DNA of 59,465 nt, from the NCBI GenBank assembly GCA_019244235.1, contig JAFASY010000217.1, forward strand, positions 1 through 59,465, read 5' to 3'. Shown piece by piece: positions 22,944 through 28,834 of this stretch; position 1 is the first letter of the stretch, and each line of letters begins with the position of its first letter. The notes beneath the pieces were generated by a model, which was given only the letters and a program-made list of their open reading frames with translations, searched no databases and was not told where the DNA came from. The position numbers and the translations under genes were made by a program. This stretch comes from Chroococcidiopsidaceae cyanobacterium CP_BM_ER_R8_30. Its GTDB lineage: Bacteria; Cyanobacteriota; Cyanobacteriia; Cyanobacteriales; Chroococcidiopsidaceae.

Positions 22944-23660
22944 CTACCTCACCACTACTTCCATATCACTACCAAGCTGAGTTTGAGCCAACTCTAATTC
23001 TGCAAGGGCATTATCTAACTTTGTTTGATCTTTAAAAACGTTATCCTGATGCTGTAAATAAGCTTTAAGATACTTGATACGTAAAAGTGGCTCATCACTT
23101 CTACGTTGAAGAAAAGGAAGATCTGCTTCCACCATAAAGCGAATAGCTAGCATAGGAAGAGGGCTGCGAAGTGGACGAAAATCTTTGTTGTGCAATCCTG
23201 GAGTTTTATTAAGCTTGTGGAATTCCCCAATCATCAGCCCTGCCTCAACAAAGAAAGGTTTAAGGTTGTGTTGGACATCATCAATAAGATTTGAAGTCTC
23301 TTGTATAGAAATATCAGGAAAGACTAACAAGATAGATTTATAGAGAGCCTCTTCTCCCTCTTGCGGATCAAGCTTAAGGAAAATATCTTTGTAGCCTTTA
23401 ACAACTTCTTCAACTTGAAGCTGTGACAAATTCTCACCACGAATAGCTGCGAGTCGGAGAGTGTTTAGTTTGAGGGTACGAGGTAAAAAAGGGCAAACAG
23501 GACCGCCTCTACCCAAATCCGAGTGAGGTTTTGTCAAAAAATTTTTAACCCAATGCATAGTTTCAGCTAAGTAAGAAAAGTCTTCTTGGCTCTGGTCAAG
23601 TTCAGATGGTGTATAGAGTTGCATTGCTCTGAAATCTTTGGTGATTGTGAAGTGTTGCAC
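22944..23660 (-). CDS. DUF6875-like protein beside the peptide synthetase
   Basis: 238 aa from ATG 23658-23660. The characteristic stretch is MHWVKNFLTKPHSDLGRGGP followed by VCPFLPRTLKLNTL, matching the DUF6875 pattern (HPxLGRxGPVCPF) found next to natural-product genes. The C-terminal half is helical and contains FRPLRSPLPMLAIRFMVEAD, another conserved segment of these proteins. No signal peptide or membrane segment. Biochemical role is unknown. It lies 86 bp downstream of the A-PCP-TE synthetase on the same strand and is probably in its operon. Confidence 0.65.
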   Translation of the reverse strand: MQHFTITKDFRAMQLYTPSELDQSQEDFSYLAETMHWVKNFLTKPHSDLGRGGPVCPFLPRTLKLNTLRLAAIRGENLSQLQVEEVVKGYKDIFLKLDPQEGEEALYKSILLVFPDISIQETSNLIDDVQHNLKPFFVEAGLMIGEFHKLNKTPGLHNKDFRPLRSPLPMLAIRFMVEADLPFLQRRSDEPLLRIKYLKAYLQHQDNVFKDQTKLDNALAELELAQTQLGSDMEVVVR

Positions 23661-23746
23661 AAAAAAATACCCAACTGGTAGAACAGTTGCGGTATGTTAT
23701 AACAAGTCAAGGAGGAAATGTAGAGACTTGAAGAAGAAATTTATAT

Positions 23747-26407
23747 TTAATTAGCTCTTGGCTTCTGCGACAAATCCAAGCAATTTTCTAATTTATGAGC
23801 AAGGACATTTACATGAGGTTCTTCTAACATACTAATGTGATCCCCAGGAACATCCTGGATTTCTAGTCCTCCAGCAATTAGCCTTCCCCAGCCCAGTTGG
23901 GGATCAAACTTTCCAAATTGCAACAAATGTAAGTCTCCTTTAGAGGAATTGCTAGCCCGGAAGAGGATCGCCCGACCTGGGAAGATTTGAGGTATATAAT
24001 TTCTGAAAGCCTGAGTGTGAGCTGTTAGTAGAGGGTTTTGTAAAGCTGATTTGTGTTGGTTATCCGACTGAAATATACAGTCTAATTGCTCCTTTATGTA
24101 GACTAATTTCTCTTTAGGTTCAAGTTGTAAGAAGTTAATCAAATGTCTAGAGGCTCGAACATGAATTGGGAACGGTTTGAAAGAATTGGCATTGTGAGTA
24201 TCAAACAAAACTAGCATTGCTACTGTCTGACCTTGGGCGTGCAACTGCTGAGCCACCTCATATGCCACCAAACCTCCAAAAGAGTAACCACCTAGAAAAT
24301 AAGGCCCTTCAGGTTGGAGAGTCTGTATTTCTTGAATGTAGTCAGCTGCCATCTCCTCAATCCGGGTGTGGGGACTCTGTTCGCCATCCAAACCTCGTGC
24401 TTGTAATCCATAGAAAGGTTGCTCCTCGCCCAGATAATGCGCCAACTTATAGAAGGAGAAAACGTTGCCACCCACACAATGTATGCAGAAGAAAGGAAGT
24501 TTATTTCCCCTAGGCTGAATTGCTACCAATGGTTCCCAAGATGCAATCCATCCTTCTTGCTGCAACACATTCGCTAACTGCTCTACCGTTGGTGCCTGAA
24601 AGAAAGTGACTAAGGGCAATTTCTTGTTGAAGATCTCCTCAATTTGAGTCATTAGGCGAACAGCTTGTAGTGAGTTACCCCCCAGCTCAAAGAAATTGTT
24701 TTTAACTCCGATGGGCTGGATGCCTAGAACCTGTTCCCAAATCTCTTTCAATTGAAATTCCAACGGATTTTGAGGGGCTACAAAGGCGCTCTCTAGAGCA
24801 TGAGGTTGCGACGGCACTGGCAAGGCACGGCGGTCTATCTTACCATTGGGGGTTAGTGGCAAAGTCTCTAAGACTACGCAGGCGGAGGGCAGCATGTACT
24901 CTGGCAGTTTTTCCTGCAAGAATCTGCGTAACACACCAACTGTGAATACACGAGCCTGAGATAAAACAATATAAGCCACTAAGCGCTGAGCGCCTGGTAT
25001 GTCCTCGCGAACCACAACGACACTCTGTCGGACATCCGGGTGTTGGCTAATTGCTGCTTCTATTTCCTCCAACTCAATACGGAAACCACGTATTTTCACC
25101 TGATAGTCAATGCGACCAAGGAACTCAATCTTGCCGTCTGGCAAGTAACGGGCTAAATCCCCAGTCTTGTATAAACGTGCACCTAGATCATTACTGAAGG
25201 GGTTGCGAATAAACTTCTCGGCAGTTAGCTCTGGACGGTTGAAGTAGCCTAGGGCCAGACCGACTCCACCAATGTGGATTTCACCTGCTGTGCCTAGAGG
25301 TACAGTCTGTAGCTGAGAGTCTAGGAGATAAATCTGTGTGTTAGCAATGGGGCGACCAATAGGAGCAATTCGGTGATGAGTGTTACGACTACAGGTCCAG
25401 AAAGTAGCATCAATGGAAGCTTCAGTCGGACCATAGACATTATGCAAGACATTGTCTAAGTTTAGACGAGCAAAGAAGCGCTCAATTAGCTCGCTAGGCA
25501 GAGGTTCGCCACCGCAGCTAACATGTTTGAGACATTTACAGGTATCGAGGTCCTTTTCCTGCAGAAACAACCGGAGCATGGAGGGGACTAGGGCAATTAC
25601 AGTGATTTGCTGCTGGGCAATAAGCTTGACTAGATAAGCACTGTCTCGCTGTCCACCCGGACGGGCTAGGTACAATTGCGCTCCGAACGACAACGGCCAG
25701 AAGATCTGCCAGACTGAGGGATCGAAGCTCAAAGAAATTGTCTGTAAGACCCGGTCTGCAGCGGTTAGCGAAAAGGTCGTTTGCCTCCAGTACAGTTGAT
25801 TGCAGATGCCATGATGAGCAATCATCACACCTTTGGGCTGCCCTGTAGAACCGGAAGTATAGATCGTGTAGGCTAGGGAACTAGCTGTTGTCTCACAGAT
25901 TAGATTTGCTCGACTTTTCTGGCCAATGAGTTCCCAGTCTGAGTCCAAGCAAATCAGTTGCGCTTTGTGGGCAGGTAGGTGTTCTACAAGTTGCTCTTGA
26001 GTCAGCAGTACTCGCACCTGGGTTTCCTGCAAAATAAAGGCTAAGCGCTCTAAGGGATACGCCGGATCTAAGGGCACATAAGCTCCTCCAGCCTTGAGAA
26101 TGCCTAGCAGTCCTATCACCATCTCCAGGGAACGCTCCATACAGATGCCAACAAGTACCTCATGACCTACGCCTTTGTAACGGAGATGGTGTGCCAGTTG
26201 ATTTGCCCGCTGATTCAACTGCCGATAAGTCAGCTTGGTGTCTTCAAATACCACTGCAACAGCATTAGGTGTCCGCTCTACTTGAGCCTCAAAAATTTGA
26301 TGAATGCAAGTAGGTTGGGAGAAGTCTATTCGGACATCATTCCCTTCTCCTAATACTTTTTGATACGCAACATTGTTAACTAACTCTACATCTATTGTTG
26401 TACTCAT
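23747..26407 (-). CDS. Free-standing NRPS module A-PCP-TE, 886 aa
   Basis: Adenylation domain about 35-530 with A1-A10 motifs: LTYRQLNQRANQLAHHL, AYTIYTSGSTGQPKGVMI (A3), VYGPTEASIDATFW (A5), YKTGDLARYLPDGKIEFLGR (A7-A8), NGKIDRRALP (A10). Specificity residues read by alignment to GrsA are D-P-W-A-V-C-V-I-D-K, a code I cannot assign to a substrate. PCP: NFFELGGNSLQAVRLM, phosphopantetheinyl Ser about 578. Thioesterase about 640-880 with GGYSFGGLVAYEV (Ser about 708) and a C-terminal GDHISML His. There is no condensation domain; the protein begins in the C-A linker. Like fungal quinone synthetases it could activate, load and release or dimerise one acid. Downstream: DUF6875. Confidence 0.88.
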   Translation of the reverse strand: MSTTIDVELVNNVAYQKVLGEGNDVRIDFSQPTCIHQIFEAQVERTPNAVAVVFEDTKLTYRQLNQRANQLAHHLRYKGVGHEVLVGICMERSLEMVIGLLGILKAGGAYVPLDPAYPLERLAFILQETQVRVLLTQEQLVEHLPAHKAQLICLDSDWELIGQKSRANLICETTASSLAYTIYTSGSTGQPKGVMIAHHGICNQLYWRQTTFSLTAADRVLQTISLSFDPSVWQIFWPLSFGAQLYLARPGGQRDSAYLVKLIAQQQITVIALVPSMLRLFLQEKDLDTCKCLKHVSCGGEPLPSELIERFFARLNLDNVLHNVYGPTEASIDATFWTCSRNTHHRIAPIGRPIANTQIYLLDSQLQTVPLGTAGEIHIGGVGLALGYFNRPELTAEKFIRNPFSNDLGARLYKTGDLARYLPDGKIEFLGRIDYQVKIRGFRIELEEIEAAISQHPDVRQSVVVVREDIPGAQRLVAYIVLSQARVFTVGVLRRFLQEKLPEYMLPSACVVLETLPLTPNGKIDRRALPVPSQPHALESAFVAPQNPLEFQLKEIWEQVLGIQPIGVKNNFFELGGNSLQAVRLMTQIEEIFNKKLPLVTFFQAPTVEQLANVLQQEGWIASWEPLVAIQPRGNKLPFFCIHCVGGNVFSFYKLAHYLGEEQPFYGLQARGLDGEQSPHTRIEEMAADYIQEIQTLQPEGPYFLGGYSFGGLVAYEVAQQLHAQGQTVAMLVLFDTHNANSFKPFPIHVRASRHLINFLQLEPKEKLVYIKEQLDCIFQSDNQHKSALQNPLLTAHTQAFRNYIPQIFPGRAILFRASNSSKGDLHLLQFGKFDPQLGWGRLIAGGLEIQDVPGDHISMLEEPHVNVLAHKLENCLDLSQKPRAN

Positions 26408-26476
26408 ATAGTAATTCCGATCAAGCTACTTGAATATCAAAATGAATGCTAAAAACAAGTTGCAAGTCGCAGGTAA

Positions 26477-26736
26477 CCCACGACTTCAGTTCTTGTCATT
26501 ACCCACATCTTTAAAAAAGCCAGCGGTGAGTGCGCTCTTTCAATCCCGCCTTTGACTTAAGTCAAAGGCTAACAGCCTAAGTCGGTTGAAACCGACTAAC
26601 AAAGCACCACTTCTTTTGAGTCCGTTTTAACGGACTTGAGCTTTTAGCCTGGAACTTGAGTTCCAGGCATGAAAAAGGTTTAGAGGTAATTTGACTCCTA
26701 AAAAATGTATGTAATGACAAGGACTTCAGTCGTGGG
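26477..26736. repeat. MITE-like element with 26-bp terminal inverted repeats and four hairpins
   Basis: Ends 26477-26502 and 26711-26736 are inverted copies matching at 23 of 26 positions (CCCACGACT..AGT.CTTGTCATTAC). Inside lie four separate palindromes: 26548-26569 (GCCTTTGACTT and its complement), 26580-26597 (AGTCGGTT/AACCGACT), 26619-26636 (AGTCCGTT/AACGGACT) and 26647-26668 (GCCTGGAACT/AGTTCCAGGC). All are built on an ACTT/AAGT or GACT/AGTC core with differing arms. No coding sequence. It lies 70 bp upstream of the synthetase start, so it may affect its promoter. Confidence 0.65.
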
Positions 26737-27435
26737 CTTGAAACATTGACTTATTAAACCTTAGACCATGTCTCTCGGTTTAATTGTTTGTTTATTTGTG
26801 GGAAATATTGCCCGCAACTGAAGTTTTGCAGGAGCAAAATTTCCGACTTGCGACTTGTTTTTATCAAAGAGGGCTTATAGCTCAGCTAAAAAGACACTTG
26901 TGTTATCTACTTGGGCTGCTAAAGTGCACTCCTAGTGTCTTCTTAAGCAACCTACAGCACATACGCTGATATCGAAACCTACTGGTATTGATTTTTTACA
27001 TGATACTGACAAGATGTTAATGCGTACTTACTGTTTTTGTCAAGCTATCTGCTGTATCACTCAGGACCAACGGAGCAAATCCTGCCAATCTAACTATTAC
27101 TAGTGAGCGCAACCACAAGGGCGATCGCCACAGTTCAGAAAAGTCATTAATCCATGACAAATCGGCTATAAGATCAGAATAACCGACTGGCTTTCCCCCA
27201 AGCGGCATCCCTTGAAAGTATCCAGAAGGACAATAGAGATTACGGGTAGTTGTGGTGCAGAACACGAAGGGACGAGAACGCTTTCAAAAATATAGAAATG
27301 GTCGGCATGGGGCAAACGCTTCGCTTCGCCTAACGCCTTCGGCTTCGCTACGCTAGCGGCTGACGGCACGACCTTAAACGAGCAAGAGAGAGATGGTAAG
27401 ACTGCTTGCAGCACAACGAGAGTGAAGCGCTCTTG
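26737..27435. other. Gene-poor stretch between MITE-like element and IS
   Basis: About 700 bp without a recognisable gene. A minus-strand frame of 82 codons (27017-27265) has some protein-like text but matches nothing I know. At 27307-27372 there is a compact block of CTTCG/GCTACGC-type repeats (for example CGCCTTCGGCTTCGCTACGC), a repeat style dispersed in cyanobacterial genomes. The region probably once held the N-terminal part of the FAD monooxygenase cluster, but no trace of it is visible. Confidence 0.4.
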
Positions 27436-27635
27436 TATCCCCGTCATTCATGGCGGGGAGATGTCAATGTTGGGTATCTAAATCTAGTAGACCAAAATCG
27501 TACCGACTGATAAACAGTCCAATTACCAGAACGTGCATTTCTTCTGATGCGTGAAAAGCAAATCATTTTCCGGGCTAATCTTTTAACCTCTTGTGCGGAA
27601 TTCCCCATCCGCCAAGGAGCGGTGGGGGACGGCAC

Positions 27636-28091
27636 TTAAAGCGGCGAAGTGAATTCGCCGCACGTTGCCTCATGGATAGCGCCCCTACCACCAGATTGTC
27701 CGGCGATATATTTTTTGACAGTTTCTAAGGGAGCGCCACCACAAGAAACTATACACTTGGAGTCATGCCATAGCTTGGCTTTCCCCCAGTAGTGTTTATC
27801 AATTTCTGTTTTGTATCTCTCCCTCAAGATTCTACTGCTTGCAGATTTTAGAGAAGCAACAAGGTCAGAAATATTATTATCAGGATGCAAATCAATCAAC
27901 AAGTGAACATGGTCTGGTTCTCCATTACAGTCTTCTAGTTCAGAACCATTCGCTTCCAGCACACGAGTAAAAATTTCTTTCATGTCCTCAATCATCTGTT
28001 GCGTTAGAACCTTGCACCTGTATTTGGTTACAAACGCTATATGCAGGTGAATAGAGAAAACTGCGTGTGAGCCGCTTCTCAACTTAGTCAT
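27636..28091 (-). CDS. tnpA: IS200/IS605 TnpA (Y1 HUH transposase)
   Basis: 151 aa from ATG 28089-28091. It has the IS200 start (HAVFSIHLHIAFVTKYR), the HUH metal motif in GEPDHVHLLIDLHPD, LVASLKSASSRILRERY, and the catalytic Tyr in APLETVKKYIAGQ. The core is intact and could be active. The last residues (EATCGEFTSPL) are encoded by a hairpin that is part of the element end. It catalyses single-strand excision and insertion at hairpin ends. Confidence 0.85.
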   Translation of the reverse strand: MTKLRSGSHAVFSIHLHIAFVTKYRCKVLTQQMIEDMKEIFTRVLEANGSELEDCNGEPDHVHLLIDLHPDNNISDLVASLKSASSRILRERYKTEIDKHYWGKAKLWHDSKCIVSCGGAPLETVKKYIAGQSGGRGAIHEATCGEFTSPL

Positions 28092-28096
28092 GAGAA

Positions 28097-28438
28097 TCCC
28101 TTGTCATCCACAAATACCGTCACAACGATGCCCCAATTGTGGAGCTGTTCACAAAGAATGGGCAGAATTATCAAACCGATATCATAGTCTGTACTGACTG
28201 TGGTTTTGAAGTACCACGTGATAGAGGTTCTGTGATGGTTATGTACAACGCTGCTACTAATCAGCAACCGGGGGTGGGAACCAGCCTCGAAGACTGTGGA
28301 TTATCAAGCTCTACTTCATTGACCAAGAAGCGCAAGCATACAGGTTCGATGAAGCAACTTGGTAAGTTGAAGCGTCAAAAACTCCAAAGTAAGGCAGACT
28401 GGGAACTAGAAACCCCGTCCGTCTTAACGGCGGGGTAG
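28097..28438 (+). pseudogene. tnpB: TnpB remnant: zinc finger and tail only
   Basis: Only the C-terminal part remains: PSQRCPNCGAVHKEWAELSN, ending with a TGA, and in the next frame VCTDCGFEVPRDRGSV to TAG 28436-28438. CPNCG and CTDCG are the four-Cys ribbon of TnpB and VPRDRG stands where TnpB has the final DRDxNAA catalytic motif. A frameshift separates the two Cys pairs, and the RuvC-like and HTH parts (about 300 residues) are deleted. It cannot encode an active nuclease. Confidence 0.75.
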
Positions 28439-28834
28439 TTCATTCCTGTTTATGGTCAAGGTATGACTGCTGCTGCCCTAGGAGCGTTAACCCTAGATCA
28501 GTGCCTCAAGCAACAATGGCGCGACTCTAAGAGCGGGTTATCAGGTTTAGCTCTGCGCTTTCAAAAACAGTTGGCTAAAACTAACTCAGTTCCTTGGCTG
28601 ATGGCAACAGGTGAAGATTTCCGCTGGCCAAACACTAAAGGGGGACGGCCAGACTTTGCCACCCGATTGATGCATTGGTATATCGATCAAGTCATGGAGT
28701 TAGCTGGCGAGAATGCCGAAGCTTACAGAGTTTTTGTGGAAGTTATGCATTTGCTCAAGCCACCCACTGCGTTATTCCAACCCAGTATCTTGGTGCAAAT
28801 TCTAAGGCTGAAGATGCATTGGAAAACTAGCTGA
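28439..28834 (+). pseudogene. FAD-dependent monooxygenase, C-terminal fragment
   Basis: Directly after the IS end the plus strand reads FIPVYGQGMTAAALGALTLD, the second FAD-binding motif of aromatic-hydroxylase/FAD monooxygenases (xFNPxYGQGMTxAALEA). It continues to the natural C-terminus (VMHLLKPPTALFQPSILVQI) at 28834. The Rossmann GxGxxG half and the substrate domain are missing upstream and not found elsewhere in the window. An ATG at 28463 could start a 123-aa product, but it would have no activity. It lay in the same neighbourhood as the NRPS and DUF6875 genes. Confidence 0.75.

Follow-up and report, generated by a model that had tools for sequence, protein, structure and literature searches.

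A DUF6875 protein, probably a heme oxygenase, and its pairing with one clade of peptide-synthetase adenylation domains in cyanobacteria

The locus

In a 59,465-nucleotide stretch of DNA from Chroococcidiopsidaceae cyanobacterium CP_BM_ER_R8_30 (contig JAFASY010000217.1, assembly GCA_019244235.1; this whole stretch is called the window), two neighbouring genes on the minus strand encode a small protein of the DUF6875 family and a single-module nonribosomal peptide synthetase (NRPS). The latter consists of an adenylation (A) domain, a peptidyl carrier (PCP) domain and a thioesterase (TE). The two genes form a real, conserved unit with a defensible enzyme class. A preliminary description, made from the letters of the DNA alone, had already recognized a module lacking a condensation (C) domain next to a DUF6875 gene, and profile searches bear this out.

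The synthetase gene (23747-26407, minus strand) encodes 886 amino acids (aa). Pfam places the A domain (24803-26407, minus strand) as AMP-binding at residues 39-389 and AMP-binding_C at residues 448-523, followed by the carrier domain (PP-binding, PF00550; residues 552-614; 24566-24754, minus strand) and the TE (PF00975; residues 639-868; 23804-24493, minus strand), and it finds no C domain in the protein. The A-domain core motifs, the PCP serine and the GxSxG, Asp and His motifs of the TE are all kept. When the specificity code was re-derived from residues aligned to the GrsA positions, the same string emerged as in the preliminary description, DPWAVCVIDK. The DUF6875 gene (22944-23660, minus strand) matches PF21780 with E 6e-64 and 215.8 bits against a gathering cut-off of 24.5. 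Its start is likelier to be the ATG of MQLYTP at position 23624, 12 codons into the open frame. The synthetase gene lies upstream on the same strand at a distance of 86 bp, or 122 bp from the MQLYTP ATG. Compared with their counterparts in G008, which belongs to the same family, dN/dS is 0.16 for the synthetase gene (dS 1.7) and 0.23 for the DUF6875 gene (dS 1.2), both dS values being near saturation. As the differences are mostly silent, both genes look maintained and appear to be under purifying selection.

Co-occurrence of DUF6875 with one type of A domain

Among 100 genomes, comprising that of the window and 99 relatives, DUF6875 occurs in three: the genome of the window, G008 and G013. 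A set of 386 cyanobacterial genomes has it in 11, and A domains with the core FDP-x-VW occur in 12 of the 386, namely these 11 and G317. The 30 pattern matches examined yielded 13 A domains in the 12 genomes, two of them in the genome of the window; the other 17 had no A-domain match. The A domain of G317 (code DPWGICLVDK) falls outside the clade described below. One scoring step of the genome survey took just three candidates per genome.

The association was also counted in 145 genomes of a single family, that of G154, which partly overlap the 386. DUF6875 scores above the cut-off in 54 and below it in two more (G492 and G514, E 5e-4), which lack the motif and were counted as negative. The motif FDPSVW with a TCN codon is present in 51 of the 54 and in none of the other 91 (Fisher's test, 5e-36, with no correction for phylogeny); unfiltered by codon, the counts are 51 of 54 versus 11 of 91 (2e-24). 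Matches with other codons were set aside, and six of the genomes so removed (G523, G542, G470, G471, G476 and G502) were untested for A domains. A link between DUF6875 and this A domain far beyond chance is supported by these counts, the statistics of which ignore shared ancestry.

Physical linkage is common and not universal. In the 145-genome sample, DUF6875 matches occur no more than 8 kb from 46 of the 58 A sites. Ten genomes have no A site near DUF6875; in four of them (G154, G198, G235 and G441) the partners share a contig at distances of 0.7-4.2 Mb, and the remaining six have them on separate contigs of draft assemblies, which does not by itself prove distance, the A gene lying at least 10 kb inside its contig in G340 and G435. 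Among 52 loci fetched by protein similarity, DUF6875 is directly upstream of an A-domain gene in 14 (nine stand-alone A-PCP-TE enzymes and five larger or cut synthetases), and the remaining 38, mostly from Nostoc, show no A-domain gene within the fetched stretch. The order of the genes also varies: the synthetase comes first in the window and, judged by positions, in G467, the genes are divergent in G008, and DUF6875 leads in the remaining linked loci that were mapped. Named strains with the pair include Calothrix sp. PCC 7103 (L039), Chlorogloeopsis fritschii PCC 6912 (L027) and cyanobacterium PCC 7702 (L012). The pairing persists through changes of gene order and loss of linkage. In G013 both partners have decayed: the DUF6875 remnant has 113 codons and has lost its N-terminal half with the Cys56 motif discussed below, and an A-PCP-TE reading frame of 673 codons, at a distance of some 100 kb, has lost in frame the C-terminal stretch of its A domain together with the carrier. 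This near-constant co-occurrence, even at a distance, suggests that the pair makes and uses one unusual amino acid.

The genome of the window (G000) has a second A domain of the same clade on contig C299 (loci L157, L162 and L163). It has the code DPWTICFID., sits in a polyketide synthase-like/NRPS open reading frame (ORF) that runs off the contig end, and has a further adenylating enzyme nearby. The one DUF6875 protein of the genome could serve this second A domain too, in trans.

The DPW clade and its synthetases

The A domains in question share the code pattern DPW[AGT][VI][CS][CVF]IDK. A tree was built from 85 A domains of chosen loci, 77 of them different, aligned over more than 380 residues. 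Its 45 rows with a DPW code, the window included and G317 not labelled as such, are set apart by a single branch with 100/99 support; some genomes appear twice, having been drawn from two collections. The neighbouring group has the codes DAWQVCLIDK and DVWHVCLIDK, which are glutamine-like and serine-like, respectively.

The clade is found in A-PCP-TE enzymes, in the first module of A-PCP-C-A-PCP-TE synthetases, in second modules with a TE and inside longer assembly lines. Where it comes first, the second modules have the codes DILQICLVWK, DVRHLLLLAK, DPRHVFFQAK and DAMHILGVTK. The C domains of the longer synthetases were confirmed by Pfam in three proteins (L099, L102 and L104). The preliminary description had named as a finding that would refute it that the window enzyme is a fragment of a synthetase that is multimodular in all relatives. 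This was rejected, as stand-alone A-PCP-TE frames of about 870-920 aa recur in many Nostocales and both forms exist. Its suggestion of an aryl- or keto-acid enzyme of the fungal quinone-synthetase type fares no better. A domains for keto acids have lost Asp235; this residue is kept in the window, and the complete codes read from the DPW clade retain it along with Lys517, which disfavours that option. In one longer synthetase (L104, 4741-15644) the DPW module is second, preceded by an N-terminal formyl transferase and a first A domain with an asparagine-like code, and followed by a third module with a TE; its product is possibly an N-formyl tripeptide.

Indigoidine-type synthetases resemble the window enzyme in having one module with an amino-acid A domain, a TE and no C domain. 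They differ in carrying an oxidase domain within the module, where here a separate DUF6875 protein is found, and in their code.

DUF6875 as a probable heme-dependent oxygenase

The preliminary description did not identify DUF6875 as a likely heme enzyme. According to a 2026 paper (PMC13307353), proteins of the DUF6875 family bind heme and are able to oxidize L-tryptophan. The paper also reports that deletion of zigI, a DUF6875 gene of zigralone biosynthesis, gives a demethoxylated product, and it proposes that ZigI hydroxylates an indole at C-7. The window protein belongs to the same Pfam family and shares the association with natural-product genes, ZigI itself not having been aligned; the cyanobacterial members differ in being paired with one clade of peptide-synthetase A domains.

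AlphaFold models of the window protein and of the DUF6875 protein of L053 (mean predicted local distance difference test 86.0 and 86.6) have a mixed alpha/beta fold. For both, the best match in the PDB is AglA, a thiolate-heme hydroxylase of the YqcI/YcgG family (Foldseek E 1e-4 and 1.7e-3, respectively). The VIA scores to AglA are Z 9.3 with a root-mean-square deviation (rmsd) of 4.7 over 159 aligned residues for the window protein and Z 8.9 with an rmsd of 3.9 over 140 for that of L053, the overall range of Z being 8.6-9.3. Heme domains of nitric oxide synthase appeared at Z about 4, one at Z 5.0, which is too low for use. A DUF6875 profile from a broad alignment, compared with ten YqcI/YcgG proteins, matches over some 90 N-terminal columns with E 1.8e-4 and a probability of 48%. 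In this weak alignment Cys56 falls on the invariant cysteine of YqcI/YcgG, and the heme ligand of AglA is Cys44 according to PMC12866846. Cys56 (codon 23493-23495, minus strand), the alignment-based candidate ligand, is invariant in 17 divergent DUF6875 proteins, among which no histidine is invariant and His46 nearly so. The candidate ligand position would be in register with that of AglA, whereas sequence similarity is at the limit of detection and the Pfam families differ: PF08892 (YqcI/YcgG) matches neither the window protein, which has PF21780 alone, nor anything else in its genome. A search of solved structures by sequence gave a single match, at E 0.038, taken as chance.

From the family literature and the predicted fold, DUF6875 is a probable heme-dependent oxygenase, and probably one with thiolate ligation. 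The idea of a free amino acid oxidized before assembly for a dedicated synthetase has a parallel in the heme tryptophan hydroxylases of the tryptophan-2,3-dioxygenase type (BifE, PMC13285481), from which DUF6875 is set apart by its mixed alpha/beta models.

DUF6875 beyond cyanobacteria

DUF6875 was found in 61 plasmid records, of which seven were opened in eight regions, one lacking annotation; none was found in phage records. On two Streptomyces plasmids (L112, 7989-15700; L114, 7884-15784) the DUF6875 gene overlaps the start of an NRPS gene by 4 bases, and the two A domains have quite different codes. The presence of DUF6875 at synthetases with other codes indicates that the partnership is wider than the DPW clade and extends to other building blocks or A-domain lineages. 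Genes for TauD-type dioxygenases lie upstream of both pairs. A Streptomyces DUF6875 gene is found beside annotated genes for indole-glycerol-phosphate synthase, phosphoribosylanthranilate (PRA) isomerase and trpA, and on a further Streptomyces plasmid (L113) neither a synthetase nor tryptophan genes adjoin it.

Of three rhizobial records, one is unannotated; the other two have, directly behind DUF6875, a gene for aminoacyl-tRNA editing of the YbaK type, confirmed by Pfam in one. The Rhizobium plasmid loci with this order are L222 (11154-12456) and L221 (5875-7175), and in R. etli CFN 42 a gene resembling methionyl-tRNA synthetase lies about 7 kb from the DUF6875/YbaK pair. A neighbour of the YbaK type would be consistent with a need for protection against a free analogue of an amino acid.

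Neighbouring features

Directly upstream of the synthetase gene, nested inverted repeats occupy 26447-26866, with outer arms of 23 nt that are 91% complementary and inner arms of 36 nt that are 83% complementary. They resemble a small non-autonomous element and could affect the promoter of the synthetase gene. Outside the two-gene cassette lies an IS200-type transposase gene (Y1_Tnp, PF01797, E 5e-35; 27636-28091, minus strand), and beside it, at 28139-28438, a 99-aa ORF (CTDCGFEVPRDR) that by eye resembles the tail of TnpB and has no Pfam match. The window has no Rfam match at the gathering threshold, and no tRNA gene was found.

The stump of an FAD oxidoreductase at 28463-28834 (plus strand), noted in the preliminary description as cut by an insertion sequence (IS), is genuine. 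Taken alone it matches nothing in Pfam or NCBIfam. It best matches, at 50-56% identity, the C-terminal ends of ORFs of 470-530 aa in its own genome and seven relatives, weaker matches being 23-51% identical. One of these ORFs (L118) matches FAD_binding_3 at 7e-9 and, more weakly, Trp_halogenase at 2e-7.

What the pair may make

We propose, with a probability of about 0.6, that DUF6875 converts a free amino acid by oxidation into X, a non-proteinogenic amino acid, and that X is loaded by the dedicated DPW A domain of the A-PCP-TE enzyme. The small oxygenase, probably of the thiolate-heme kind, would produce X; the A domain, from a clade dedicated to it, would adenylate X and pass it to the carrier; and the TE would free it in the form of an acid, an ester, a dimer, a conjugate or a cyclic product. 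In relatives the X cassette would serve to start dipeptide synthetases or to supply an inner unit of longer assembly lines, and DUF6875 could act in trans. Family precedent and the Streptomyces locus with tryptophan genes point to tryptophan or indole, and we put tryptophan forward as the origin of X on that precedent as a tentative choice, at somewhat under even odds. Trp239 and Asp331 of the code would also be compatible with a residue resembling arginine, glutamine or phenylalanine, and no paper with DPW code strings was found in the open-access literature.

Oxidation could instead take place after loading, DUF6875 acting on the amino acid bound to the DPW-module carrier and the TE then freeing the oxidized product, much as cytochromes P450 oxidize aminoacyl residues on carriers. 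Such a scheme would give the A-PCP-TE enzyme a reason to exist and would suit the adjacency of the two genes in most linked loci. It seems unlikely, however, as the carriers that follow DPW A domains have no common signature across architectures. Among the carriers of the tree set, those between a DPW A domain and a TE share 0.40 identity in pairs with DPW carriers followed by other domains and 0.53 with non-DPW carriers followed by a TE, so that carriers group by the downstream domain and a DUF6875-specific carrier is not clearly seen. This speaks for a free substrate, as does the proposal that ZigI acts on a free indole intermediate (PMC13307353). An arginine-derived X, with DUF6875 as an AglA-like hydroxylase of the guanidine or side chain and the acidic residue 331 of the A domain holding the basic group, is a doubtful alternative. 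Its attraction is that the best fold match, AglA, hydroxylates the guanidine nitrogen of an arginine-containing substrate (PMC12866846). The published DUF6875 activities that we found concern tryptophan and indoles (PMC13307353), and the Streptomyces trp neighbourhood points the same way. Asp331 and Trp239 resemble arginine codes, and no literature match to the code strings was found; phenylalanine-, glutamine- or histidine-like readings are equally possible.

The preliminary description had joined the FAD enzyme to the pair in one pathway, inactivated here by the IS. Proximity and a genuine stump are in its favour, and we nevertheless consider it highly improbable and reject the enzyme as a partner. 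Homologues occur in 13 of 19 relatives, of which G008 alone has DUF6875, on a different contig; a tblastn search of 55 DUF6875 loci found no match to the stump at 1e-5 within flanks of at most 8 kb, often much shorter; and the genome of the window retains two longer paralogues of 528 and 532 codons. The presence of homologues in relatives without DUF6875, together with the lack of matches at DUF6875 loci, places the FAD enzyme outside the unit, and the stump is probably an unrelated neighbour. The preliminary interpretation as a whole is partly supported.

Several observations weigh against the proposal that DUF6875 supplies X as a free amino acid. An enzyme that loads and releases one amino acid has no evident purpose unless the TE joins X to something. 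The DPW carriers followed by domains other than a TE are fairly alike (0.69 among themselves versus 0.53 with their non-DPW counterparts), so a carrier signature may still exist and the argument for a free substrate is not strong. Three genomes have DUF6875 alone: in G465, a two-contig assembly, no DPW motif was found, and of 15 A-domain matches at E <= 1e-120 the two whose codes were read are glutamine-like; G517 and G528 have the gene at a contig end and no DPW A domain. Besides these, G492 and G514 have their sub-cut-off matches (E 5e-4) with no motif. As to the enzyme class, AglA gives low TM-scores (0.36-0.40, normalized by query length), and an unrelated helical protein reaches Z 8.3 with the L053 model, for which reason the assignment to the AglA fold rests on AglA ranking first twice and on the Foldseek values. 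The profile match to YqcI/YcgG is weak, falling to E 7.6e-4 and a probability of 25% with the cyanobacterial alignment by itself. The name cytochrome P422, given to the DUF6875 family in a preprint, may not fit thiolate ligation. The code, with Trp239 and Asp331, does not resemble tryptophan codes, and its nearest relatives are presumably glutamine- and serine-like.

Significance

No description of the pairing of DUF6875 with DPW A domains was found in the open-access literature, although the cytochrome P422 preprint may describe part of this pairing, and nothing relevant was found there on cyanobacterial A-PCP-TE enzymes with hydroxytryptophan or on YqcI or graminine in cyanobacteria. It is an evenly balanced proposition that the two genes are a portable cassette, in which a heme oxygenase without the P450 fold supplies one undescribed amino acid to Nostocales synthetases, from one-module to multimodular and also in trans. 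The pairing joins DUF6875 and an unassigned A-domain code in a single testable hypothesis that spans dozens of cyanobacterial genomes, namely that the code DPW[AGT][VI][CS][CVF]IDK is the signature of an amino acid that DUF6875 makes. Should this be true, the code would be predictive in genome mining and would reveal a new building block, and the newly reported heme family would possibly gain a new assembly-line partner.
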